57,665 bases of DNA from a virus, in the IMG/VR virus record IMGVR_UViG_3300042482_000462, positions 1 to 57,665 of that record. One strand, given 5' to 3'. The notes under the pieces are model-generated. The model was not told the origin of the DNA. It saw nothing but the letters and a program-made list of their open reading frames with translations, and made no database searches. Position 1 is the stretch's first letter, and every line of letters begins with the position of its first letter. Below, piece after piece: positions 31,456 to 46,473 of the stretch. The position numbers and the translations under genes were made by a program.

Positions 31456-34400
31456 ATGCCAACACTTCAAGAACTGCGCACCAGCATTCCAGAGCTTACC
31501 GGCCTGGACGACAGCACCGCCGTCGAGTACATCCGGCGCATTCACTACCCTGACCGGACAGCCGCAGAAATCGGCTCACGGCTGGGCGTGAAGCCGGCTG
31601 CGCCTTCCGTGAAGCCGCGCAGTATCCCGGCCGCCGTCAACGACACGGTGATCGACTTCAGCAACGCCGTTGCCGGTGGTGTCGCGTCCATCGGCAACTT
31701 TGTGTCGCCCGGCAACCGGGTTTCCAAGTTCATTCAGGACGACATCATCCAGGCTGGCCGGGCAAACCAGTCCGATGCCACCCAGGCAGAAGATGCCCGC
31801 TACGGCCAGGAAATGGAAGCCGCGCAGGGCATTGGCGACGAGGTTGCATCGACGCTTGGCTACGTGGCGCGCAATCCAATCCGGTCGCTGGCCACCGCCG
31901 CAGGTTCGTTCGTCGGCCCTGCTGCCGGCGTCAAGGCCGCACAGTTGGCTGCGCGCGGTGTCGGCGTGTCTGCTGGCGGCGTTGGTGCTGCGCGTGCAGG
32001 CATGGCCGGTGGTGCGTTGACCGGTGCAGCCCTGGCCGGTGGTGACGCTGGCGGAACGGCTTACGACCTGGTGATAAAGGCGGGCGGCACGCCTGAGCAG
32101 GCCACAGAAGCGGCCCGCAACGCATCCGTGATCCCGGCTGCCGTTGGTGGCGTGGGCGGCATGGTTGGTGCCGAACGTCTGCTGGCTGGCGCCAAAGGCT
32201 TCAGCGGCGGCAGGTTGGCGCAGATCGGCAAGACAGCAGCCGTGGAAGGCGGGCAAGAGTTCATTGAGGAAGGCGTCACCCAGTACGAAGGCCGGCGCGC
32301 TGCGATGCCGTATGACCCAACCATCGACCCCATGAAGGGTGTGGCAGGCGCCGCAACGATGGGCGCTGTGTTGGGTGCTGCTACAGGTGGTGCGATGGCA
32401 GCGCTGAAGCCGCAGGTTCCAGAGCTTGGCCCGTTGAGCCGTGCGGCAAACATCGCACCAGACACAACGCCAGAACCGCCGCCGCCACCCGTACCGCTGA
32501 CGCCAGAGCAGGACGCAACGCTCAAGGCCCACGCCAACGCCCGCAACGCCGAGTTGACCGAAAAGGCCAAGGGCACCAAGGACGTGAAAACGCCAGAGGG
32601 CACGATCCCTGGCAAGCAGCCCGAGTTTCTGACGCCTGCAGAGAAGGAAGAACAGGCATTCCTGCAGCAGAACGGCGGCGACACTCAGGCGCTGGCCAAG
32701 GCTTACCCTGGACTGACCGCAGAGCAAGAGCAGCGGGCGCTCGCCAACATTCAAGACTTCGCCAACGAAGGCCAGGACCGGATGCGCACGTTCGCGCCCG
32801 CGCCGCAGCCGGCCCCGCCGCGCCAGCCGGCAACGGTCATCAGGGCAGAGCCTGAGCCGCGCCCACAGCCGCCGTCATTCGAGCCTGACCTGACCACACC
32901 GGCAGCGATCTATGAATCGCTGAACGAGATCGAGCAGCGCAACGACCAGACGCGCCGCATGTATGCGCAGCAGCCAGGTGACCGGCTGAACAAGCAAGGA
33001 AAGCCGTTCAGCAACAAGGCCGCGGCGAAGATCGACCAGAAGAAGGCCGGCGACGGGTTTGCGATTGTTCCAGCCGACAATGGTTTTGTGGTGCGTCCGG
33101 TGGTGGGCGTATCTGCGGAAATTCCGCAGATGGACGCAGACCTGCCGACGCTGAAGAAAGCATGGAGCGACGCCGCAGCGGCCGGGCGCACCGAAGACGC
33201 CAAGGTCATCAACGACCGCATCCTGGCACTGAAGGCTCCAAAAAATGCACCAGAACGGCAAGCACCAGCCCAAGCCGAAGGAACTCAAGCGCCAGCGCCG
33301 GCAGCAGTTGCAGGAGCGGCAGCACCAGAAGCCGATTTTTCCGCAACCGGACAGCCTGCCGTTCAAGCGGGAGGGGTAGATCAGAAAGCGCGCTGGTTGA
33401 AGAACGTCGCCGACAGCAACAGACTGGCAGGCCCCACGGGCGCGCAGATCACCGGTATCGAGAACGGTCGGCTCAACTATGCAGGCGACCCGCGCACAAG
33501 CAAGCAGGGCAAGTCTCTGATAGCCAGCGTGGACGAGGCGCTCAAGGCTGGCGCCACGCTTGCGGAGATTGCGCAGGCAGCGGCACCCAAGCCTACTTCC
33601 ACCAATGCCGCGGCCCCGAAAGTACAACCCCCCGCGCAAGTCGCCGGGGATCGGGTAGCCGCGGCGCCACGTCAAGGACAGGTTGGCGACAAGTTTGCGG
33701 CCGGCGAGGTGGCGCTGACGGCCAGCGGGCGAACCACAACGCCATTTCCAAAGGTCGCGCTGGACACAAATCGCAAGGCAGCGGCCACCATCAAGGCCGT
33801 TGACCAGTGGCTGATGTCGAACGCGCTGGCTGAGGCCGAGTCGCGTGGTGACGATTTCAACGCCAGACAGTTTCGAGCGAATCAGACCAAGCCGCAGCAG
33901 GCAGACAAGGACAGCGCCGAGGAATACCTTTTTGGCGATCAGCCGCGCGTGCTGCCGTCCATTACCAGGCCGCTGATTTCAACCGCTGCCGCCCCACCCC
34001 CACAAGCACAACCCGCTGCCACAGCAGTGGCCCGCCCAAACCGCCGCACCAAGGCCGTGGAAGCCAAGGCAAAAGAGGCAGAGTCCAAGCGCGCGGACTA
34101 CTTCAGCCCAGGAAACATCGTCAAGAGCTTTGGCGGCCACGACGAGGTTTTGTCCTACACGCCCACCGCTGGTGGCGGGTTCACCGTCAAGGTGCATGAG
34201 GTCAAGAAGAACGACCAAGGCGAGTGGGTTCGACTTGGCAAACCGCAGGACGCCCGCCAGCACGCCACCAACCCCGATGCACGCGAACTGGCAGCCGGCC
34301 CCGTTGCAAGGCTGAACCCGCAGCCGGGCGCCGAGGTTAAGTACAGCGAGCCACGGGCAGATGGGGCGCCGTTCCAAAACGCCCCAGGCCGTGGCAGGGC

Positions 34401-37400
34401 ACCAGTACAGGACCAGGCCAATCCCGCTGCACCAGAGCCCGCACCCAAGACGCTGAAAGAGCGCCGGGAGCAGGCCAAGGCAACGCCAGGACGCAACGGC
34501 CCGAACGTCATCATCAACCGCCTGGGCCCGGATGGGCTGACCGACGCCGAGCGCGCGGCAGGCAAGAAGCCGTACAACGACCCGCCAGCGCCACCTGCTG
34601 ACGACAAGACAGTCAAGAGTTTGTTTGGAAACGCCCCTCTCAAGGGAGCATCCGGCAAGATGGATACTCTGGGTGGCTTCTCTGCCGGCGACCGCGTGAA
34701 GGTCAGTGGCCGCACCATCGGCGACTCGACCGTCGAGTTCCTGTTTACGCGCGACATGGCAGGGTTCAGTGAGCCAGGCCAGATGGCGCAAATTGTGAAT
34801 GCCGACGGCAAAAGGCTTCAGGTGCTCACGTCTGAGTTGCAGCGCATCGACGCCGCGCCCGACCTGCAGACCAGCGTGGCAGTGCGGGAACTGGCTGCAC
34901 GCGCAGCGGCATTGCAGACCCCACCGGCCGCGGCACCGGCCCCGAGCGCCAACACCGTCTTCACCGAAGACGCCGCCGCAGCCGCCCGTGCCCGCCTGAA
35001 GGCCAAGCTGGGCCGCCTGAGTTCCGGCATCGACCCCGAGACGATGATGGACGGCATCACGCTGGCCGGCTACCACGTCGAGAAGGGCGCCCGCACGTTT
35101 GCCGCCTACGCCCGCGCGATGGTCGACGACCTGGGCGATGCGGTGAAGCCGTACCTTCAATCCTGGTACATGGCCTTGCGCGCCGACCCGAAGGCAGCCG
35201 CTTTCAAGGCCGACATGGACAAGGCCAGCGCCATTGAAGATCTGACGCCCCCCCAGATTGAAGCGCTGCTGGCGCCAAATGACGCCAACCAGACGGCTCA
35301 AAAAGCGCAGAATGAGGCGCCAAAGGAGAACCCAGATGATTCCCCCACTTCAGGATCTGCGCCTGCGGTCAATCAGCCGCTGGCTCAAAGACCAGAGCCC
35401 AGCACTGCCCGCCGCGGTGCTCAACAGCCGCGCAAGCGAGCTGGACGAGCAGATGATCGAGTCGTTCGAGGAACGGGAGGACTCGTTGAAAGCGCAGCGG
35501 ATGAAGGAGCGCCGCTGGGGGACGGAGGAAAGCCTGACACGGTTCCCGCTGGAGCGGATGGAACTGTGGCAGGAGGTGTGCAGCGAGTTCCTACCCGTGA
35601 CTTCCGACCAGCCGCAGGAGACCTGAAGCGCGAGGGTTCGTGGTTTGCCACGGCTGCACGCAACATTGACCTGATTGAACTGGCTCTGCGCATCCAGGCC
35701 GAAAAGCGAGTGGCCACGCCGCAGGAACAGGCTCAACTTGCGAAGTACGTGGGCTTTGGCGCCAGCGAGATCAGGAACAACCTGTTCCCGGTGCCGTCGC
35801 AGTGGGCCCGCCAGCAAGACCCCAAGCGCCTGATCTGGCCAGACTTGGTGCGTGAAGCGCGCTGGAAGCCGCTGGCCGAGCGCATGGCCGCGTTGCCAGA
35901 AGAGTGGCAGCGTTCGGTGCTTCAGTCAACGCAGTATGCCCACTACACCAGCGAAGGCGTGATCCGTTCCGTGTGGAGCGGCCTGCAGCGCCTGGGCTTT
36001 ACCGGCGGCAAGGTGCTGGAGCCAGGCATGGGCATCGGCAGCTTCAACATGCTGATGCCAGACACGGTGCACGCCACCAGCCGTTACACCGGTGTGGAGT
36101 TCGACGGACCGACCGCGCTGATTGCGCAGATGCTGTCTCCCGACCAGAACATGCTGCACGAGGACTTCATCAAGCGGAAGTTCCCGCGTGACTTCTTCGA
36201 CCTGGCGGTAGGCAACCCGCCTTTCTCGCAGACCAAGATTCTTGGCGACCCGGACTACGAAAAGTTTGGGTTCATGCTTCACGACTTCTTCTTTGCCAAG
36301 AGCCTGGATCGCGTGCGGCCAGGTGGCCTGCTGGTGTTTGTCACCAGCAAGGGCACGATGGACAAGCAAAGCGACAAGGCCCGGAAGTATCTGGCCGAGC
36401 GCGCCGACTTGCTGGGCGCCATCCGGCTGCCGTCTACCGCCTTTGAGGACAACGCCGGCACCAGCGTTGTCACCGACGTTCTGTTCCTGCGCAAGCGCGC
36501 CCCTGGCCAGGAGCCGGCAGGCCCGGCGTGGACCGGCGTGCAAACCATCGACACCAAGGATGGCCCCGTCGTAGTGAACGAGTATTTTGCGGCGAACCCC
36601 GGTATGGTGCTGGGCGAGCAGCGCATCAACGGCAACGTGGACGACTTCGGCCGGCGCATCAACAGCAATGGCATGGGCGGCGCCAAGTACACGGTGGTGA
36701 GCTACGACTCCACGCCTGAGCAACTGGACGAGCGTTTTGCCAAAGCCATCGAAAGCCTGCCAGAAAACGTGTATTCGCCCCTGAGCGCCAACAGCGAGCA
36801 GGTGAAGCGCGAAACGGCCAAGGTGGACTTTGACCCGTCGATCAAGCGCGAGGGTGTTGTGTACCTTGGCGCCGACGGCAAGCTGCGCCGCGTGCAGAGC
36901 GGTGTTGGCGTGGCCCTGGCCGATGGCATGAAGTTGTCGGCCAAAGACGAAGCCTGGTTCAAGGGGTACGTGGGTGTGCGCGACATGGTGCAGGCCGCAC
37001 GGCTTGCCCAGGTGCAGGACGGCGATTGGGAGAAGGCGCTGAAGGCGCTAAACAAGGCTTACGACGCATTCCGCAAAGAACACGGCCCAATCAACGACTT
37101 CCGCACGCAGACCCGCCGCGGCACCGACGAAGAAGGCAACGAGGTCACGACCGAGATCCGCATCTTCAAGAACCGGCGCCTGTTCCGCGAAGACTACGAC
37201 AGCGCCGTCATGACGCAACTGGAGGTCATCAACGAAACCGGCGAGATCATCAAAGCCCCGTTCCTGCTTGGCCGCACCATCGGCAAGCCTGTGGTGCGCG
37301 AGGTCAAGACCGTGGGTGACGCGCTGGCCGTGTCGTTGGATGAAACCGGTCGGCTGGACCTGGACGACATTGCGCGCCGCATGAGCTTGAGGCGCGACGA

Positions 37401-40400
37401 AGTGGTCGACGCGCTGGGCACTCAGATCTACAAGGCCCCTGGCGGCCAGTGGCAACTGTCGGACGAGTACCTGTCCGGTGACGTGGTGGCCAAACTTGAG
37501 GAAGCCGAGCTTGCCGCGCGCCTTGACCCAAGCCTCGCGCGCAACGTGCAAGCTCTGAAGGAAGTTCAACCCGAGAAACTTGGCCCGTCGCAAATCAGCG
37601 TGAAGGCCGGCGCATCATGGGTTCCTGCGGAGTACGTCAATGACTTTGCCAAGGAAATCGGCGCAGGCGCTGTGACGTTCGATTCCAAGACCGAATCTTG
37701 GCAAGTCCAGGGCGGCAACGAGCGCAGCGCGCGCCGGGCTGGCGCTGAGTACGGCACCGCCGATCGTTCGCCTTCGGAGTTGCTGGAGTCTGTGCTGAAC
37801 AGCCAGAGCATCACGATCAAGCGCACCGATGCCGACAAGAAGGTTTACACCGACGCGGCGGCAACCACGGCGGCCAACGAAATGGCACGCAAGATCAAGG
37901 AGAAGTTCAAGGGGTGGGTGTGGACTGACGCCGACCGCGCAAGCAACCTGGTGGAGATCTACAACAAGCGCTTCAACAACATCGCGCCGCGCCGTTTCGA
38001 CGGCTCGCACATGACGCTGCCTGGGGTGAGCCTGCGGTTTAGCCTGCATCCGCACCAGAAGCGCGCGATCTGGCGCCAGGTGCAGACCGGCGACACCTAC
38101 CTTGCGCACGCGGTGGGCGCCGGCAAGACCATCGAAATGATTGCCGGCGGCATGGAGCAAAAGCGCCTTGGGCTCATCAGCAAGCCCATGTACGCCGTGC
38201 CAAACCACATGCTGGAGCAGTTCGCCAACGAGTTCATGGAGCTCTACCCGCTGGCCAACATCATGGTGGCCGACGACGAAAACTTCTCAGCCGAGCGCCG
38301 CAAGGCTTTTGTGGCCGCCGCCACCTTGAACGCCCCTGACGCCATTGTCATCACTCACAGCGCGTTTGAGCGCATTGGTGTGAAGGAGGAAACCGTCGCT
38401 CCCATCCGCGATGAGATTCTGGACGACCTTCAAACCGAACTGGAGGACAGCGACAAAGGCGACCGCGTGCGCCGGGCGCAGCTGCAGCAGCAGATCGAGG
38501 CTGTGGAACAGCGGTTTGACAGCATCGTCGGTGCCGGCAAGAAGGACTCGACCATCAAGTTCGAGGACATCGGCGCCGATTTTGTCTACGTGGATGAGGC
38601 CCACGCTTTCCGCAAGCTGGACTTCACGACGAACCAGAAGATCAAGGGCATTGACCCCAACGGGTCACGCAGGGCCCTGGATATGTACGTCAAGACCCGC
38701 TACCTGGGCCGCAAGAAGCCAGGTCGCGCAATGGTGTTTGCGTCTGGCACGCCGGTGACCAACACCATGGGCGAGCTTTACACCATCATGCGGTTCTTCT
38801 CACCCCAAGAGTTGAGCCGGGGTGGCATTGCAACCTTCGACGCTTGGGCGCGGCAGTTCGGCGAGGCAGTGCCTGCACTGGAAGCCAACGCCGCCGGCCG
38901 GTACGAGGTAGTGGAGCGCTTCGCCAAGTTTGACAACGTGCCCGAACTGATGTCACGAGTGCGGCAGTTCATGGACGTGCTGACGTCGGAACACCTGGGC
39001 GCCTTGGTCAAGCGGCCAGACATTGAGGGCGGCAAGCCTGACCTTATCACGGTAGATCCTACCGAGGCCCTGAAGAAGTACATGAAGGGCGTGCTTCTGC
39101 CGCGCCTGGAGCAGTCGCGCAAGTGGAAGCCGACGAAAGATCAGCCGTTCAACCCCGACCCCGTGATCGCCATCACCAGTGACGGCCGTTTTGCCGCGCT
39201 GGACCCGCGTTTTGTTGGGGAAAAGATCGACGAGAACGCAACCCCGACCAAGCTCACGCGCATGGCCGACGAGGTGGCGCAGATCTACAAGGCCAGCGCT
39301 GGCAACGAATACTTGGACAAGCAGGGCAAGCCAGAGCCTGTCAAGGGCAGCACGCAGATCGTGTTCTACAACCTGGGCTTTGGGGCGCAGTCGATGCAGA
39401 ACCGCGGCTTCGATGCGCGCGGCACTCTGACCAAGCGTCTGGTGGCGCAGGGCGTGAAGCGCGACCACATCCTGTGGTTTGATGATGCGGACACCGACTC
39501 CAAGAAGGAGACGATGTTCAAGGCCATGCGCAATGGCCAGGCCCGTGTGCTGATTGGCAGCGCCAAGAAGATGGGCACTGGTGTGAACGTGCAGAAACGC
39601 CTGCTGGCTCTGCACTACTTCGACCCGCCCTGGTATCCCAGCGACGTGGAGCAGCCGCACGGCCGCATCATCCGCCAGGGCAACCAAAACACACTGGCCA
39701 CCATCAAGTGGTACGCCACCAAGGGCACCTACGACAGCACCATGTGGCAGATGGTGGCACGCAAGCAGCGCTTTATCGACCAAGCGTTCAGCGGCGACAA
39801 GTCGCTGCGCACGATGGAGGACATGAGCGAAGCCAGCATGTTCGAGCAGGCCGCCGCGGTGGCCAGCGGAGACCCGAGGGCTTTGCAGTTGGCCGGGTTG
39901 CGCCAAGACGTGGAGCGACTGGAACGGCTGCAGGCGGCGCACGCCAGCGAGCAGATTGCACTGCGCAGCGGCCTGCGCAGTGCCGAGTGGAACATTGAGA
40001 GCTACGCCAAGCGGGTGAAGACCTACGGCGACGCATTCAAGGCCATCGGCGGCGGGTACTACAGCTTCAGCAGTGCAACGGTTGGCGGCAAGACATTCGA
40101 CAAGGTAGGTGAGTTCGGCCAGGCGCTGAAGGATGCTTTCAACCAGAAGGCCGCCGATGCAGTCATGGAACCGGGCACCAAGACGCGCGCCCTTGCCACG
40201 CTGCCATCTGGCATCACAGTCCGCATGGAGGCCAACGAAGACCGCGAAGGCAAGCCAACCGGCGAACATGAACTGGTGCTGCGTGCCGGGTCCGTCGACA
40301 TTCAGTTGACCGGCTACGCTGCCGCGCTGGGCGAGAAGGTTGACGCCGTGGGCCTTGGCCGGCGCGTCATCAACGCCGTCAACGGCATCGAGGCAGACTT

Positions 40401-43400
40401 GAACCGCGCCAAGTCGTCGCTGGCCAACGAGGAAACCGACGCGACGCGGCTGCGCAAGAAACTGGGCGCGCCTTTTGAGTATCAACAAGAACTGGCCGAG
40501 AAGATCGGCGACCTGAAGCGCCTGGAAGAAGAACTTCGCGCCGAAGGAGAGGCAGAAGCCCGCGCCGCGGCGGCAGAGGTGGTGATTGACGCCACGGGCG
40601 CCAGTGAAGCAGGACAGCCGCGCGCCGACGGCGCCGCGCAGTTCAGCCGCGCCACCGGCCAGTCCACCACCCCCGCCCAGCTTCGCACCGCCCTTGAAAC
40701 CGAGTTCAGCCCTGAAACCATCGGCGCCCTTGAGCGCGCTGGCCTGCTGACCATTGGCGACCGCCCGACCGCTGGCATGCCTTCAGACGCAGCTGGTGTG
40801 AGCCAGGGCGGCAGGATTGGCCTGTTCGCCGGCAACACCCGGCCGGGCTCGACAGCCGTCGCGTACCACGAAGCCCTTCACGCCACGCTCAAGACCAGCA
40901 TCGGCGAGCAGACCTACGCTGCGCTGCTGGACCGCCTGGCGGCCATCGACAGCAAGGCCATGGCCGGTGGGGCTACGCAGAAGTTCTTTGCCCAGGCGCG
41001 GGGTCGCATCCCTGCCGACCTGACGGGCACTGAGCGGCTGGAAGAACTTGCCGCGTACTCGGTCGAGGCCGTGCAAGCCGAACGCGAAGGCACGCCGCTG
41101 GCCATCAAGCGCTGGGTGAGCGACTTCCTGGCAGCGCTGCGCGCGGGGCTTTCCAAGGCACTGCAAGCGGCAGGTGTGGGCCTGCGCATCCGGGCGCGGC
41201 TGCTGGCCGACCCGGCAACGCTGCGGAAGATCGCGCGCGACGGGCTGCAGGCAATGGCAAGGCAGGGGATGCAGGGCGATGCTGCAATGGCGTTCAGCCA
41301 GCCAGCAGCCGGCCCGAAGTGGTACAGCGCACTGAAGCAGTCCATCGCAGGCCTGAGCATGGGCGCAGCGCCGGCCCAGGGTTGGAAGGACAGTATCAAG
41401 GGGCTGGTGGCCAAGGGCGCCGTGAAAGCTGATGAAATCGAATGGACCGGCATCAACGAGTTCTTGGACCTGCAGCAAGGCAAGGTCACCAAGGCCCAAG
41501 TGATGGCATTCATGGATGCCAACGGGGTGCAGGTAACCGAGACGGTGCTGTCTGACGAAGTAGCGCGTTCGCTGCCCGCTGGTTGGCAGGTTCTGCGCGG
41601 CTACGACGACACGTTCACTGTTTCTGATGGCGACGGCAACATCATGGGAGAGGGCGAAACGGCGGCAGAAGCCGTGGCCAACGCGCAAGACGAAGACGCA
41701 GCGGCGGACACGCCGTCAATGACCAAGTACGGCCGGTACACCCTGCCTGGCGGCACCAACTACCGCGAGGTGCTGCTGACGCTGCCCACCAAGTCGTCGG
41801 GAAAGTATTGGGCCGAAGACGTAGGCACTGTTCCCGGGGTCCAGAACTGGATGGTCGCATCAACGCGCGAATCAGATGGGGAAACCGTGTATCGCGGCAA
41901 GAGCCACGGTTCACGCCAATCAGCAGAGCGAGCCATTGCGGAACTTGAAGGCGCGAAGAACTACAAGTCCAGCCACTGGGACCAGCCCAACGTCCTGGCC
42001 CACATCCGCCTGAACGACCGCACGGATGCAGACGGCAACCGGGTGCTGTTTGTGGAAGAGGCCCAATCCGACTGGGGCCAGGATGGCAAGAAGAAGGGGT
42101 TTGCCAACCCTTCAATGAAGCCGCTCACCAACAAGGAGTACCAGGCCTATCTCGACGGCCTGGTGGATGAGTACGCAGACAAGTTTGCCAAAGAGGCTGG
42201 CAGCCGTAGGGATGCTGAACGCAACGCCATCAACATGCCTATGCGTGCACTCGCTGAGGCACTTGGCAAGGCCGACGAGCTCGCCACCATGAGGGCTCGC
42301 CGACAAATGGACATTGATGGCGTGGCCGCCGTCCCGCTTGCCCCATTCGTTGGCGCCACCGACAAGTGGCTCACACTGGCCCTGAAGCGCGTCATCAAGA
42401 TGGCCGTCGATGGCAGCTACGACAAGGTGGCCTTTGTCACGGGCGAGCAAAGCGCGGATCGGTATGACCTGAGCAAGCAGGTGGACTCCATCCGCATCAC
42501 ACGAGTGGGCGCCGATGAGTTTGATGTGGCCGCCGCCGTGAAGGGTGGCGGGCGGGGCATCAGCGAAACCGGCCTGTCACTTGCACGGCTTGAAGAAACT
42601 GTCGGCAAGGAGTTGGCAAAGCGCGGCGCTGCATTGCCCGAGGGCGTCGGCGAAACCTACACCGACACGGACCTGAAAGTCGGCGGCGAAGGCATGAAAG
42701 CCTTCTATGACCAGATCGTCCCTGCCGCTACCAAGGCCCTGCTGAAGAAGCTGGGCGGCGGGCAGATGGAGGCTGTACCAATCGCGGCAGTTGAACAAGG
42801 GTTGCGAGTCAAGCCGGTTGACAGCCCGTTTGGCAAATTTGTTCTTGTCGATGGAAGCGGCAAAGAAGTAGGACTATTTGAAACGGAAGCCGAGGCAAAG
42901 GCTTACATTCGCCAAGCGGCGAAGCCGCAGCCCGGATTCGCCATCACCCCCCAGATGCGCGAGAAGGCCAGCGGTGGAATGCCGCTGTTCAGCCGCACCG
43001 ACCAGACCGCCACCGAAGCATTCAAGCGCTGGTTGTCAGCGTCATTGGCATTCGACGGCCGGCCGGATGCCTTTGCGGCGGAACATGGCGGCGACAGCTT
43101 GGCGAGTGACGCCGCATTCGTGCGCAATTTCTTTGATACGCGAACCGTTCAAGAATTTGGACTTGGCGGCTTCGACATCCCAAGTCGGCGCGTTGTGATG
43201 CGTCGAGTGCTCGGAGTGCTTGAAGATTTCAAGATTCGCCAATCTGTTGTCCAACTTATCCCCGTTGATGTGGTGAACATCCTCGGAGCGAAGCAGCTTA
43301 CGCCCAAGATGCTTTTCAACGACATGGCGATGCTCACGGATTTGCTTGCCGGCAACCGTAATGATTCGATACCCCTTGCGGTCGATGAAACCGCAAAGGT

Positions 43401-46400
43401 TGCTGACGCTGTAGCAGCGGTGACTGCAGAACATCTTGCCGCGAACCCCAAGCTCGGAAGATCGTCTGGTAACGACGGTGCCGCATTGGGCGCAGGGCAT
43501 CGTGATGCTGCCGCCCTTCGCCAAAGCGGAGCAGGCGTGCTTGCAGTAGACATTCCCGCTGGGCGAAACGGCAGACGGGAACCGGAGAACGGGCGTGGAG
43601 CACTGAGCGCAAGAGTAGAGACTTTTCATGACAGGCAACGCATTAAACATGCGATAGCCTACAACGCAGAGTCCGGCACGTCAACAATAAAGACGTTCAA
43701 CCCCGCAAGCCCTGACATCAGATTTAGCCGCACCATGGGCGAGACTCTGCGCGAGGCCGTGCCATCCGCCGCACAAGAGTGGATTGCCGACCGCGCCACC
43801 TCACAGCGCGGGTTCAACCGCCCGTGGCACCGCACCGTGGGCACCCAACTGCACAAGGCCAAGATCAACAAGGACTTCGGCCGGGTGTACTACGCTGCCC
43901 AGGACTTCATGAAGGACGTAAGCCGGATTGCCACCCTGGCATCCGACCGCGCGCCCGACATGCTTCCCCAGATCGAAACCCTGTCTGACATGGCAAAGTT
44001 GGCGCCGAGCCTGGCAAGCCCCGCAGCCTACAAGCAGCGTAAGGCCGACATCAAGGGTGCGAGTGATGCGCTGTTTGACGGCACGCTGCGCTACACCCGA
44101 AACGACGACGGCGAAGCTGTGGCCGTGGATCCTGACAGCAATGAACTGGGCGGGCTGGTGTGGACAGACGCCGAACTGCGCGACCGTGGCATGAGCGAGC
44201 GGGCCATCAAGATGTACCGGCAAAGCCGTGAGGCCATCGACCAGAGCCTGGACAGTATGCTGGCGGCAGACCTGTTCCGCCAAGCCGGTGTACTGAAGCC
44301 TGAAATGCTGGCCGACACCCCGAGCGCGCACCAGGCGCTGCTGGACGGCATGCGCAAGGCCGCTGCGTCCGACAACCCAGCGCAGGTCGGGCAGATGCTG
44401 CGCGAGGCCATTCGCGGACAACTTGAATCGTTGGGCACGGCCCTGGAAGGTCAGCCCAACCAGTACACAGACGGCCTGAAGCAGCGCCAGCAGGAACTGC
44501 GCGACCTGCAGGTGGCCATTGGCGAGAAGATCGAGCGCATCGGTTCGCTGAAGGCATCCGGCTACGCTCCGTTGATGCGTTTCGGACCTTACGCCGTGGA
44601 CGTGATCGACGCTGACGGACAGCGCATTTTCTTTGGCCTGTACGAGGGCCAGGCCGCCGCCAACCAGGCCGCGCGCAACTTCCGTGGCCAAGGACTGCAG
44701 GTCAGCCAAAGCGTGATGCCGCAAAGCGACTTTGAAGCGCTGAAGGGTGTCAGCCCTGAAACGGCCATGCTGTTTGCTGAAATGCTGGGCGTGGAGAAGA
44801 ACGAGGCCATGCAGACGTGGTTGAAGAACGCGGTGGCCGAGCAGTCGGCCCTGAAGCGCCACATCCGCCGCAAGGGCATTGAAGGGTTTGACGAGGACGG
44901 CAGCCGCGTGCTGGCCGCTTTTGTGACCAGCAACGCCCGCGCCGCATCGCGCGCCCTGCACGCTACCCGCATGGCTGACGCTGTGGAGAACGTGCGCCAG
45001 GGTGACGTGAAGGACGAGGCCCGCGCGCTGGTTGAGTACATCAACAACCCCAAGGAAGAAGCGCAGGCCATCCGTTCGCTGCTGTTCGTGCAGTACATCG
45101 GCGGCAGCGTGGCGTCAGCGCTGGTGAACCTGACCCAGACCCTGGTGCAGACGCTGCCCTACCTGAGCCAGTACGGCGGGGCTGTGAAAGCCGGGCAGCG
45201 CCTTTCCGGGGCTATGAAACTGGCCCTGGCCGACAAGATCACAGACACGGAACTGTCCGACGCTGTGAAGCGCGCCGAGAAGGATGGCGTCATCAAGCCG
45301 CAGGAAGTTTTCCAGCTGCAGGCCGAGGCCAGCCGCAGCCTGGGGTCCAACCTGTACGTGCGATCACTGCTTTCGGCCTGGGGATCAATGTTCCAGATGG
45401 CCGAGGTGTTCAACCGCCGCGTGGCCTTCATCGGCGCCTACAACACCGCCAAGGAACAGGGGATTGCGGACCCGTTCGCTTTCGCGGAAAACGCGGTGGA
45501 TGAAACGCAGTCCGTGTTCAACAAGGGCAACCGGCCAAACTGGAGCCGCGGCGCCGTGGGTGCCACCTTGTTCACCTTCAAGACCTTCACCATCCAGTAC
45601 GTGGAATTCCTGAAGCGCCTTTCGACCGCTGGCGAGCCTGGCTCACCTGAGCGCAAGCAGGGTCAGCGCGCCGCTGCCGTGGCGCTGATGATGCTGATGA
45701 TCCTGTCGGGCATGAAAGGCATTCCGTTTGCTGATGATGCAGAGGATTTGGTTGACACCGTGGCGCAGGCCCTGGGCTACAACTGGGTGACCGATGCGCA
45801 GCGCGACCGCTGGCTGGACAAGATGCTGGGCGAAACCATGTCAGACATCGTGCAGCATGGCCTGAGCGGCGTGCCCGGTGTGCCGTTCGACGTGTCGCAG
45901 CGCCTTGGCATGGCAAACCTGCTGCCCGGCACCGGGCTGCTGAAGCAGTCGGAAACCAACAAGCAGAACCAGGTGCTGGAAGTATTTGGCGTGGCCGGGT
46001 CAGCGGTAAAGGATGCCACCCAAGGCCAGGTGCTTCCGTTGGCCATCCGCAACCTGATGAAAGGCCTGGACACCTACCAGACCGGCATGTACCGCGACAG
46101 CAGGGGGCGCAACGTGGTTGAGTCTGACGGCTTGGGCGCGGCATTGAAGGCCATAGGCCTGCAGCCTTCGCGGGTGGCCAGCGCCCAACGCGACATTGGC
46201 CGGCAGATCGAGGAACGCAACCTGTACAGTGCGGTGAAGGAAGAAATCACCGACGCCATGGCGCAAGCCCGCTTCGACAAAGACGCAAACGCCGCCAAAC
46301 AGGCTGCTGCTGCGCTGAATAAGTGGAACGACACCAACCCCGAGGCGCCCATCATCATCAAGTCCCACACCATTCAGGCCCGCGTGCGGCAGATGATGCG

Positions 46401-46473
46401 CAGCAAGGCAGAGCGCACCATTGCCAACGCGCCCCGGCCGCTGCGGGCCGCCACGGCAGAGGCCTTGCAGTGA
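31456..46473 (+). CDS. giant polyvalent virion protein, 5005 residues
   Basis: A single frame of 15,018 bp. Visible order: Gly-zipper hydrophobic segments (about 150-318); disordered Pro/Ala region; polyvalent-associated domain 'GIDPETMMDGITLAGYHVEK' (about 1180-1270); N6-adenine methylase with SAM motif 'EPGMGIGSF' (1522-1530) and NPPF (1587-1590); SF2/SNF2-type helicase with GAGKT (2221-2225), DEAH (2380-2383), SGTPVTNT (2430-2437) and 'QPHGRIIRQGNQN' (2733-2745); zincin HEALH (3138-3142); further polyvalent modules separated by FSR/FSQ tags; and a helical C-terminus with a hydrophobic patch. The methylase-helicase pair resembles P1 DarB, an injected antirestriction protein. Probably packaged and ejected, protecting DNA on entry. 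Confidence 0.85.
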   Translation: MPTLQELRTSIPELTGLDDSTAVEYIRRIHYPDRTAAEIGSRLGVKPAAPSVKPRSIPAAVNDTVIDFSNAVAGGVASIGNFVSPGNRVSKFIQDDIIQAGRANQSDATQAEDARYGQEMEAAQGIGDEVASTLGYVARNPIRSLATAAGSFVGPAAGVKAAQLAARGVGVSAGGVGAARAGMAGGALTGAALAGGDAGGTAYDLVIKAGGTPEQATEAARNASVIPAAVGGVGGMVGAERLLAGAKGFSGGRLAQIGKTAAVEGGQEFIEEGVTQYEGRRAAMPYDPTIDPMKGVAGAATMGAVLGAATGGAMAALKPQVPELGPLSRAANIAPDTTPEPPPPPVPLTPEQDATLKAHANARNAELTEKAKGTKDVKTPEGTIPGKQPEFLTPAEKEEQAFLQQNGGDTQALAKAYPGLTAEQEQRALANIQDFANEGQDRMRTFAPAPQPAPPRQPATVIRAEPEPRPQPPSFEPDLTTPAAIYESLNEIEQRNDQTRRMYAQQPGDRLNKQGKPFSNKAAAKIDQKKAGDGFAIVPADNGFVVRPVVGVSAEIPQMDADLPTLKKAWSDAAAAGRTEDAKVINDRILALKAPKNAPERQAPAQAEGTQAPAPAAVAGAAAPEADFSATGQPAVQAGGVDQKARWLKNVADSNRLAGPTGAQITGIENGRLNYAGDPRTSKQGKSLIASVDEALKAGATLAEIAQAAAPKPTSTNAAAPKVQPPAQVAGDRVAAAPRQGQVGDKFAAGEVALTASGRTTTPFPKVALDTNRKAAATIKAVDQWLMSNALAEAESRGDDFNARQFRANQTKPQQADKDSAEEYLFGDQPRVLPSITRPLISTAAAPPPQAQPAATAVARPNRRTKAVEAKAKEAESKRADYFSPGNIVKSFGGHDEVLSYTPTAGGGFTVKVHEVKKNDQGEWVRLGKPQDARQHATNPDARELAAGPVARLNPQPGAEVKYSEPRADGAPFQNAPGRGRAPVQDQANPAAPEPAPKTLKERREQAKATPGRNGPNVIINRLGPDGLTDAERAAGKKPYNDPPAPPADDKTVKSLFGNAPLKGASGKMDTLGGFSAGDRVKVSGRTIGDSTVEFLFTRDMAGFSEPGQMAQIVNADGKRLQVLTSELQRIDAAPDLQTSVAVRELAARAAALQTPPAAAPAPSANTVFTEDAAAAARARLKAKLGRLSSGIDPETMMDGITLAGYHVEKGARTFAAYARAMVDDLGDAVKPYLQSWYMALRADPKAAAFKADMDKASAIEDLTPPQIEALLAPNDANQTAQKAQNEAPKENPDDSPTSGSAPAVNQPLAQRPEPSTARRGAQQPRKRAGRADDRVVRGTGGLVESAADEGAPLGDGGKPDTVPAGADGTVAGGVQRVPTRDFRPAAGDLKREGSWFATAARNIDLIELALRIQAEKRVATPQEQAQLAKYVGFGASEIRNNLFPVPSQWARQQDPKRLIWPDLVREARWKPLAERMAALPEEWQRSVLQSTQYAHYTSEGVIRSVWSGLQRLGFTGGKVLEPGMGIGSFNMLMPDTVHATSRYTGVEFDGPTALIAQMLSPDQNMLHEDFIKRKFPRDFFDLAVGNPPFSQTKILGDPDYEKFGFMLHDFFFAKSLDRVRPGGLLVFVTSKGTMDKQSDKARKYLAERADLLGAIRLPSTAFEDNAGTSVVTDVLFLRKRAPGQEPAGPAWTGVQTIDTKDGPVVVNEYFAANPGMVLGEQRINGNVDDFGRRINSNGMGGAKYTVVSYDSTPEQLDERFAKAIESLPENVYSPLSANSEQVKRETAKVDFDPSIKREGVVYLGADGKLRRVQSGVGVALADGMKLSAKDEAWFKGYVGVRDMVQAARLAQVQDGDWEKALKALNKAYDAFRKEHGPINDFRTQTRRGTDEEGNEVTTEIRIFKNRRLFREDYDSAVMTQLEVINETGEIIKAPFLLGRTIGKPVVREVKTVGDALAVSLDETGRLDLDDIARRMSLRRDEVVDALGTQIYKAPGGQWQLSDEYLSGDVVAKLEEAELAARLDPSLARNVQALKEVQPEKLGPSQISVKAGASWVPAEYVNDFAKEIGAGAVTFDSKTESWQVQGGNERSARRAGAEYGTADRSPSELLESVLNSQSITIKRTDADKKVYTDAAATTAANEMARKIKEKFKGWVWTDADRASNLVEIYNKRFNNIAPRRFDGSHMTLPGVSLRFSLHPHQKRAIWRQVQTGDTYLAHAVGAGKTIEMIAGGMEQKRLGLISKPMYAVPNHMLEQFANEFMELYPLANIMVADDENFSAERRKAFVAAATLNAPDAIVITHSAFERIGVKEETVAPIRDEILDDLQTELEDSDKGDRVRRAQLQQQIEAVEQRFDSIVGAGKKDSTIKFEDIGADFVYVDEAHAFRKLDFTTNQKIKGIDPNGSRRALDMYVKTRYLGRKKPGRAMVFASGTPVTNTMGELYTIMRFFSPQELSRGGIATFDAWARQFGEAVPALEANAAGRYEVVERFAKFDNVPELMSRVRQFMDVLTSEHLGALVKRPDIEGGKPDLITVDPTEALKKYMKGVLLPRLEQSRKWKPTKDQPFNPDPVIAITSDGRFAALDPRFVGEKIDENATPTKLTRMADEVAQIYKASAGNEYLDKQGKPEPVKGSTQIVFYNLGFGAQSMQNRGFDARGTLTKRLVAQGVKRDHILWFDDADTDSKKETMFKAMRNGQARVLIGSAKKMGTGVNVQKRLLALHYFDPPWYPSDVEQPHGRIIRQGNQNTLATIKWYATKGTYDSTMWQMVARKQRFIDQAFSGDKSLRTMEDMSEASMFEQAAAVASGDPRALQLAGLRQDVERLERLQAAHASEQIALRSGLRSAEWNIESYAKRVKTYGDAFKAIGGGYYSFSSATVGGKTFDKVGEFGQALKDAFNQKAADAVMEPGTKTRALATLPSGITVRMEANEDREGKPTGEHELVLRAGSVDIQLTGYAAALGEKVDAVGLGRRVINAVNGIEADLNRAKSSLANEETDATRLRKKLGAPFEYQQELAEKIGDLKRLEEELRAEGEAEARAAAAEVVIDATGASEAGQPRADGAAQFSRATGQSTTPAQLRTALETEFSPETIGALERAGLLTIGDRPTAGMPSDAAGVSQGGRIGLFAGNTRPGSTAVAYHEALHATLKTSIGEQTYAALLDRLAAIDSKAMAGGATQKFFAQARGRIPADLTGTERLEELAAYSVEAVQAEREGTPLAIKRWVSDFLAALRAGLSKALQAAGVGLRIRARLLADPATLRKIARDGLQAMARQGMQGDAAMAFSQPAAGPKWYSALKQSIAGLSMGAAPAQGWKDSIKGLVAKGAVKADEIEWTGINEFLDLQQGKVTKAQVMAFMDANGVQVTETVLSDEVARSLPAGWQVLRGYDDTFTVSDGDGNIMGEGETAAEAVANAQDEDAAADTPSMTKYGRYTLPGGTNYREVLLTLPTKSSGKYWAEDVGTVPGVQNWMVASTRESDGETVYRGKSHGSRQSAERAIAELEGAKNYKSSHWDQPNVLAHIRLNDRTDADGNRVLFVEEAQSDWGQDGKKKGFANPSMKPLTNKEYQAYLDGLVDEYADKFAKEAGSRRDAERNAINMPMRALAEALGKADELATMRARRQMDIDGVAAVPLAPFVGATDKWLTLALKRVIKMAVDGSYDKVAFVTGEQSADRYDLSKQVDSIRITRVGADEFDVAAAVKGGGRGISETGLSLARLEETVGKELAKRGAALPEGVGETYTDTDLKVGGEGMKAFYDQIVPAATKALLKKLGGGQMEAVPIAAVEQGLRVKPVDSPFGKFVLVDGSGKEVGLFETEAEAKAYIRQAAKPQPGFAITPQMREKASGGMPLFSRTDQTATEAFKRWLSASLAFDGRPDAFAAEHGGDSLASDAAFVRNFFDTRTVQEFGLGGFDIPSRRVVMRRVLGVLEDFKIRQSVVQLIPVDVVNILGAKQLTPKMLFNDMAMLTDLLAGNRNDSIPLAVDETAKVADAVAAVTAEHLAANPKLGRSSGNDGAALGAGHRDAAALRQSGAGVLAVDIPAGRNGRREPENGRGALSARVETFHDRQRIKHAIAYNAESGTSTIKTFNPASPDIRFSRTMGETLREAVPSAAQEWIADRATSQRGFNRPWHRTVGTQLHKAKINKDFGRVYYAAQDFMKDVSRIATLASDRAPDMLPQIETLSDMAKLAPSLASPAAYKQRKADIKGASDALFDGTLRYTRNDDGEAVAVDPDSNELGGLVWTDAELRDRGMSERAIKMYRQSREAIDQSLDSMLAADLFRQAGVLKPEMLADTPSAHQALLDGMRKAAASDNPAQVGQMLREAIRGQLESLGTALEGQPNQYTDGLKQRQQELRDLQVAIGEKIERIGSLKASGYAPLMRFGPYAVDVIDADGQRIFFGLYEGQAAANQAARNFRGQGLQVSQSVMPQSDFEALKGVSPETAMLFAEMLGVEKNEAMQTWLKNAVAEQSALKRHIRRKGIEGFDEDGSRVLAAFVTSNARAASRALHATRMADAVENVRQGDVKDEARALVEYINNPKEEAQAIRSLLFVQYIGGSVASALVNLTQTLVQTLPYLSQYGGAVKAGQRLSGAMKLALADKITDTELSDAVKRAEKDGVIKPQEVFQLQAEASRSLGSNLYVRSLLSAWGSMFQMAEVFNRRVAFIGAYNTAKEQGIADPFAFAENAVDETQSVFNKGNRPNWSRGAVGATLFTFKTFTIQYVEFLKRLSTAGEPGSPERKQGQRAAAVALMMLMILSGMKGIPFADDAEDLVDTVAQALGYNWVTDAQRDRWLDKMLGETMSDIVQHGLSGVPGVPFDVSQRLGMANLLPGTGLLKQSETNKQNQVLEVFGVAGSAVKDATQGQVLPLAIRNLMKGLDTYQTGMYRDSRGRNVVESDGLGAALKAIGLQPSRVASAQRDIGRQIEERNLYSAVKEEITDAMAQARFDKDANAAKQAAAALNKWNDTNPEAPIIIKSHTIQARVRQMMRSKAERTIANAPRPLRAATAEALQ
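35336..35626 (+). CDS. 96-residue gene overprinted in the giant gene
   Basis: ATG 35336, in the +1 frame relative to the giant gene, has AAAGGAG (35322-35328) 7 bp upstream, a near-ideal ribosome-binding site. Its product is balanced and helical, with 'SRASELDEQMIESFEERED' and 'GTEESLTRFPLERMELWQEV'. The giant protein's own sequence over the same DNA (residues about 1294-1390) is low-complexity Arg/Pro/Gly/Ala. That contrast suggests the small frame is the constrained one. The function is unknown. It lies exactly between the polyvalent and methylase-helicase modules. Confidence 0.6.
   Translation: MIPPLQDLRLRSISRWLKDQSPALPAAVLNSRASELDEQMIESFEEREDSLKAQRMKERRWGTEESLTRFPLERMELWQEVCSEFLPVTSDQPQET
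43042..43650 (-). CDS. HNH homing endonuclease antisense within the giant gene
   Basis: 202 residues from ATG 43650 (AGG 7 bp upstream) or 195 from ATG 43629. Two zinc-ribbon Cys sets ('CAQCSTPV' ... 'CKHAC' and 'CAQCGTVV' ... 'CSHRC') are followed by the HNH_3-type core 'EHRHVVEKHLGRKLLRSEDV' and 'HHINGDKLDNRLANLEIFKH'. A C-terminal helix-turn-helix with 'EIAHECGVTRQAVAAMFRRK' would read the target. Homing endonucleases spread by cutting uninterrupted alleles. Its codons align with those of the giant frame, which stays open through it. Confidence 0.85.
   Translation of the reverse strand: MFNALPVMKSLYSCAQCSTPVLRFPSAVSPSGNVYCKHACSALAKGGSITMPCAQCGTVVTRRSSELGVRGKMFCSHRCYSVSNLCGFIDRKGYRIITVAGKQIREHRHVVEKHLGRKLLRSEDVHHINGDKLDNRLANLEIFKHSEHSTHHNAPTWDVEAAKSKFLNGSRIKEIAHECGVTRQAVAAMFRRKGIRPAVECQ

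Follow-up and report, generated by a model that had tools for sequence, protein, structure and literature searches.

The nested endonuclease gene and its host frame

The IMG/VR virus record IMGVR_UViG_3300042482_000462, analysed over its full 57,665 bases (referred to as the window), encodes phage-type head proteins and internal virion proteins and carries a giant polyvalent-type gene on its plus strand [31456..46473; 5005 amino acids (aa), assigned from its open reading frame (ORF) and Pfam]. Inside this gene, on the minus strand, lies a 202-aa gene for an HNH_3 homing-type endonuclease (43042..43650). The codon boundaries of the two genes coincide, positions 43042 and 31456 both being 1 mod 3, and the uninterrupted plus-strand ORF of 5005 codons spans the whole endonuclease gene. 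The segment of the giant gene that is read antisense to the endonuclease (43042..43650, plus strand, residues 3863-4065) is stop-free and otherwise weakly constrained. A first-pass annotation of this DNA had described a complete minus-strand gene in codon register with a plus frame that stays open through it, and the ORFs, the common register and the absence of stops bear this description out.

The endonuclease ORF is complete and begins with ATG; a second ATG seven codons in, at 43629, would give a 195-aa alternative. Its translation matches PF13392 (HNH_3) with an E value of 3e-11 and 43.1 bits, which passes the curated cut-off of 24.8. The earlier claim of a mobile-type HNH gene within a coding gene is supported. 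The protein consists of zinc-ribbon cysteine pairs, an HNH core and C-terminal helices, and the columns C53, C56, C75, C79, D124, H126, H127, N135, N139, H148 and H152 are invariant in 10 homologues. The catalytic histidine and asparagine residues are intact in the window protein (DVHH, N135, N139, H148 and H152). Moreover, its AlphaFold2 model has a mean predicted local distance difference test (pLDDT) score of 80, and among the solved structures in the PDB the model comes closest to I-HmuI, a homing endonuclease from a phage (E 0.01, probability 0.94).

In the giant gene of the window, Pfam recognizes only an Eco57I-type methylase and an SNF2-type helicase, while PolyVal, LPD and InPase families match the host genes of related nested endonucleases in G003, G008 and G009. 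The methylase-helicase architecture presumably resembles that of P1 DarB and similar anti-restriction proteins packaged into the virion.

An open complementary strand in this register requires that the endonuclease gene avoid the codons TTA, CTA and TCA. None of its 31 leucine and serine codons is one of these three, as the first-pass annotation had noticed. Across the gene, the codon-aligned antisense frame contains no stops, and the other four frames that do not encode the endonuclease contain 12, 7, 2 and 6.

A lineage without TTA, CTA and TCA

The arrangement is not a single case: the same clade is nested likewise in eight other phage contigs. Homologues were collected by scanning IMG/VR with the window endonuclease or with its alignment (33 and 60 loci). 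Ranked by similarity (E value) alone, the nine closest homologues (L039-L046 and L006) each have zero forbidden codons (TTA, CTA or TCA), and the change at the next-ranked homologue, L047, is abrupt, with 10 of its 32 leucine and serine codons forbidden. Eight of the nine (L039-L046) lie codon-aligned and antisense within open frames of 645-3021 codons. In these eight and in the window, the open frame reaches at least 170 codons past both ends of the endonuclease gene. An additional nested gene (L108, 1411-2028) shares its giant ORF, in G004, with L040. The G004 contig thus carries two nested endonuclease genes in tandem (511-987 and 1411-2028), both antisense and codon-aligned within one 1493-codon frame.

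Together, the 11 members of the clade have no forbidden codon among 301 leucine and serine codons, compared with 359 of 1260 in 55 non-nested relatives, a count that is unbiased only for the members ranked by similarity because nesting is itself defined by openness. After adjustment for GC content, about 50 forbidden codons would be expected in the clade, corresponding to a log10 P of -24 (binomial) or -14 (beta-binomial, allowing for overdispersion); these values ignore shared ancestry, and the counts are not independent, the members being metagenomic contigs. The codon-aligned antisense frame is the only stop-free frame besides that of the endonuclease in all 11 members, the other four frames having 1-27 stops each. 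In a maximum-likelihood tree, the 11 members are separated from all other sequences by a branch whose support is 98/90, rising to 100/99 after the HNH proteins of ShiLan (see below) and of other phages were added and five long-branch rows removed, with bootstraps that, according to the program, had not fully settled. Pairwise identity within the clade is 31-66%.

As to which of the two frames is selected, conservation in every pair of members is highest at codon position 2 of the endonuclease reading and usually lowest at position 3. For L042 and L044, the ratio of nonsynonymous to synonymous substitution rates (dN/dS) is 0.42 in the endonuclease frame and 0.85 in the antisense frame. The endonuclease reading is the constrained one; the antisense peptide stays open and drifts in other respects.

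The ninth homologue, L006 (2014-2469), is placed just past the host gene's stop codon and before a second copy of the C-terminal tail of the host protein (IIRRYG..), an arrangement that may illustrate how the element exits from genes or causes their ends to be duplicated. Two genes outside the clade, L067 (5791-6441) and L049 (5695-6426), also have zero forbidden codons among 31-32 leucine and serine codons, with no long host frame around them, and possibly represent former or marginal nested cases. In prokaryote genomes, seven distant HNH genes were found, none of them nested; a search of 398 Pseudomonadota genomes at E 1e-25, which had no positive control, gave no match, and a plasmid search gave four partial matches.

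Insertion sites and element ends

In the window, the endonuclease gene is flanked by two FSR tags in the giant protein, the first (GMPLFSR) with FSR at residues 3845-3847 (42988..42996, plus strand) and the second at residues 4090-4092 (43723). Comparison with the intact ART-PolyVal module of G003 (PF18760, E 6e-31), which starts with TETEAFKKWFGKSKVV and ends with QIKSATGNNGDFDGNNPDIRFS, identifies what lies between the tags and the insert. Before the endonuclease gene, the giant protein reads TATEAFKRWL, of which TATEAFKRW (43006..43032, plus strand) is what remains of the beginning of an ART-PolyVal-like module; after it, IKTFNPASPDIRFSR (43687..43731, plus strand) is a remnant of the module end together with the second tag. 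These flanks correspond to the first ~10 and the last ~15 residues of the module, and the core is missing. The flanks of the first nested gene in G004 are TDTPAFKAWFGSS before and GIGNRGTLDQNNPNILFSR after, and there too the ART core is absent.

In the window and in the first G004 case, the endonuclease gene therefore appears to replace most of an ART-PolyVal-like module rather than to be simply added beside it, a reading drawn from short flanks. The first-pass annotation had proposed that a mobile gene entered without breaking its host, adding about 200 residues between two FSR tags. The tags are where it placed them and the frame is open, but with the core of the module gone and relatives carrying another module or nothing in its place, the event was not a clean insertion. 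The borders of the window insert are known to within a few codons.

An empty site for the first G004 gene was not found; its relatives L150 and L151 carry a phosphoribosyltransferase-like module there. The best comparison without the endonuclease gene is available for L041: the allele L153 lacks the gene at this site, its flanking DNA is closely similar, and the loop that joins LSEQPE to GIRYLDG is much shorter. The contexts of other members are quite different, e.g., in G009 the gene stands directly before an InPase domain. The host contexts thus differ, and the same register has persisted over several insertions.

The L042 and L044 genes have in common the endonuclease and a nearly identical leader of ~70 nucleotides (nt) with GGAG, and their identity drops to ~50% on both sides. 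Hence, the element is sharply bounded within dissimilar flanking DNA. The second nested gene of L108 has TTTGATACARTAGGCGG in common with L042, at an equal distance from the start. This conserved 5′ leader (TACARTAGGCGG ... GGAG; ~70-77 nt) is located upstream of the endonuclease start in L042 (5986), L044 (6001) and L108 (1411), and in L042 and L044 it contains the inverted repeat CGTCATTGG/CCGATGACG. It may be a promoter, an RNA element or a remnant of the target site. A search with the L042/L044 leader in phages, plasmids and viral contigs returned those two contigs only.

Probable read-through of the host frame and known systems

These results suggest that a distinct lineage of phage HNH genes lives codon-aligned and antisense inside coding genes and is read straight through, an interpretation that we consider likely. 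In this scenario, a homing-type lineage would have purged TTA, CTA and TCA, leaving the complementary strand as a stop-free reading frame, and could therefore settle in giant polyvalent genes, in linkers or in module slots, with no need for splicing of an intron or intein. Ribosomes on the host mRNA would translate through the insert, adding ~160-220 residues, and the endonuclease would be made from its own minus-strand transcript. Spread would presumably occur by cutting of alleles that lack the endonuclease gene, followed by repair copying in which nearby sequence is carried along; such co-copying fits the replacement of the ART-PolyVal-like core in the window. With somewhat less confidence, we favor a dedicated mobile lineage that moves through coding genes without splicing and survives in the codon-aligned antisense register alone, with a nuclease on one strand and a tolerated host linker on the other.

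Several observations weigh against this interpretation. No sigma-70-like promoter and no terminator were found in a scan around the window gene, and a Shine-Dalgarno sequence is clear in some members of the clade only. A clean empty site for the window gene was not found either: the corresponding slot holds another module in G002 (with a weak GNAT resemblance, E 0.05) and nothing equivalent in G001. The definition of nesting by openness, as noted above, bears on the codon count. An internal start after the endonuclease gene could in principle yield the C-terminal part of the giant protein separately. Finally, expression of the endonuclease, DNA cleavage, homing and translation of the read-through segment are predicted from sequence. 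Relatives that lack the endonuclease gene and still carry the same plus-frame sequence, which the first-pass annotation had named as contradicting its view, were searched for and none was found.

The alternative that survives best, which we nevertheless regard as unlikely, is that the endonuclease gene disrupts the giant gene into two pieces, with termination or poor translation at the insert and an internal start after it, the openness being a relic of ancestry. An ATG just after the second FSR tag and the loss of part of the ART-PolyVal-like module agree with such a disruption. Stop avoidance, however, lasts across a clade whose members have diverged to the extent given above and occupy different host sites, and this persistence requires continuing selection for openness. 

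The C-terminal part of the giant gene past the endonuclease (43747..46470, plus strand) is under purifying selection, with dN/dS of 0.23 relative to G001 and 0.29 relative to G002; over ~900 residues, the protein downstream is 78.5% identical to that of G001 and 66% identical to that of G002. Given these downstream ratios and an insert that is free of stops in every member of the clade, ribosomes probably need to read through the endonuclease gene to make the giant protein, although the same data are compatible with an internal start behind it.

Chance alone is a very improbable explanation. It holds that the antisense frame of an endonuclease gene in a GC-rich phage is often open and that the gene merely lies opposite a long ORF. 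Without TTA, CTA and TCA are 23% of the 203-codon gene stretches of this phage (36% in the giant gene and 11% in the other genes of the window), and a single open antisense frame in the window would for this reason be unremarkable. The significance of the arrangement comes from its homologues, as 11 of 11 clade members have zero forbidden codons. This also applies to the AT-rich G006, a phage with 33% GC, in which forbidden codons make up 37-46% of leucine and serine codons in other genes and 0 of 26 in the nested endonuclease gene. The extension of the open frames beyond both ends of the gene in the window and L039-L046 likewise speaks against chance.

We give just as little credence to the plus-strand segment being a genuine, selected polyvalent domain, with the endonuclease as a by-product or overprinted. 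The plus-frame peptides look similar across members, and the AlphaFold2 model of the segment, poor overall (pLDDT 56), has a moderately confident helical middle. However, homologues of the endonuclease are widespread outside the nested arrangement, conservation tracks its codon positions, and the segment gave no match in Pfam, in tblastn against phages or in the PDB by fold. We therefore reject a plus-frame module as the real gene, given the codon-position conservation, the dN/dS values and the lack of homologues. Least credible of all, and rejected, is the splicing out of the insert as part of an intron or intein that has escaped recognition. Both typically carry HNH genes, but the window region, L037 and L044 gave no Rfam match at E values up to 0.1, the plus frame has no splicing features and no intein domain in Pfam or by PDB fold, and an intron has no need of an open frame.

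The usual view is that a mobile endonuclease gene within coding sequence depends on an intron or intein if its host is to be spared. A stop-free complementary strand is an alternative solution to splicing that can be recognised from codon usage alone, and it provides a clear natural case of two opposite-strand frames sharing codons, with evidence on which is selected. It also bears on module swapping in giant phage polyvalent proteins and carries a warning, since stretches of such proteins that are antisense to another gene can be mistaken for uncharacterized domains.

The clade of codon-aligned antisense HNH genes looks new. Polyvalent proteins of phages and conjugative elements are long multidomain proteins [Iyer et al. 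2017, PMC5512222], as are the nested hosts, in some of which ART-PolyVal, LPD and InPase families occur; that paper mentions neither homing nor antisense genes. Free-standing and intron-borne phage HNH genes [I-HmuI-like; T4 mobile elements, PMC2988022] are of the same motif class and fold type. Unlike the clade, the non-nested relatives scanned use TTA, CTA and TCA freely and have no long antisense host frame. Homing endonuclease genes antisense to their host gene are known from nuclear ribosomal DNA [PMC9548176], but these are housed in group I introns within rRNA genes and so have no constraint from protein read-through.

The first-pass annotation knew of no common example; no antisense codon-aligned case was found in the open literature, most subscription papers being outside the search, but a partial precedent on the same strand exists. 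The ShiLan domain stands for HNH genes that are inserted out of frame, and so lie hidden, in DNA methylases of mycobacteriophages [Arsenault, Gosselin and Gogarten 2025, PMC11855218]. As in the clade, where the host frame has zero stops in all 11 members, a homing-type HNH gene resides in a phage coding gene with a stop-free host frame and no detectable intron or intein, and read-through is proposed. The ShiLan HNH, however, shares the strand of its host gene and is read in a shifted frame, as a check of its sequence confirmed, its hosts are methylases, and it falls outside the nested clade in the tree, whereas the window gene is antisense and codon-aligned and the clade has giant polyvalent hosts. 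The words antisense, reverse and opposite strand are absent from the text of the ShiLan paper. A further same-strand, shifted-frame HNH gene was observed in a DNA methylase of the Cylindrospermopsis phage Cr-LKS3 (L171, 1477-3327). It is sister to ShiLan and, as Cr-LKS3 is a cyanophage, takes the ShiLan type beyond mycobacteriophages.
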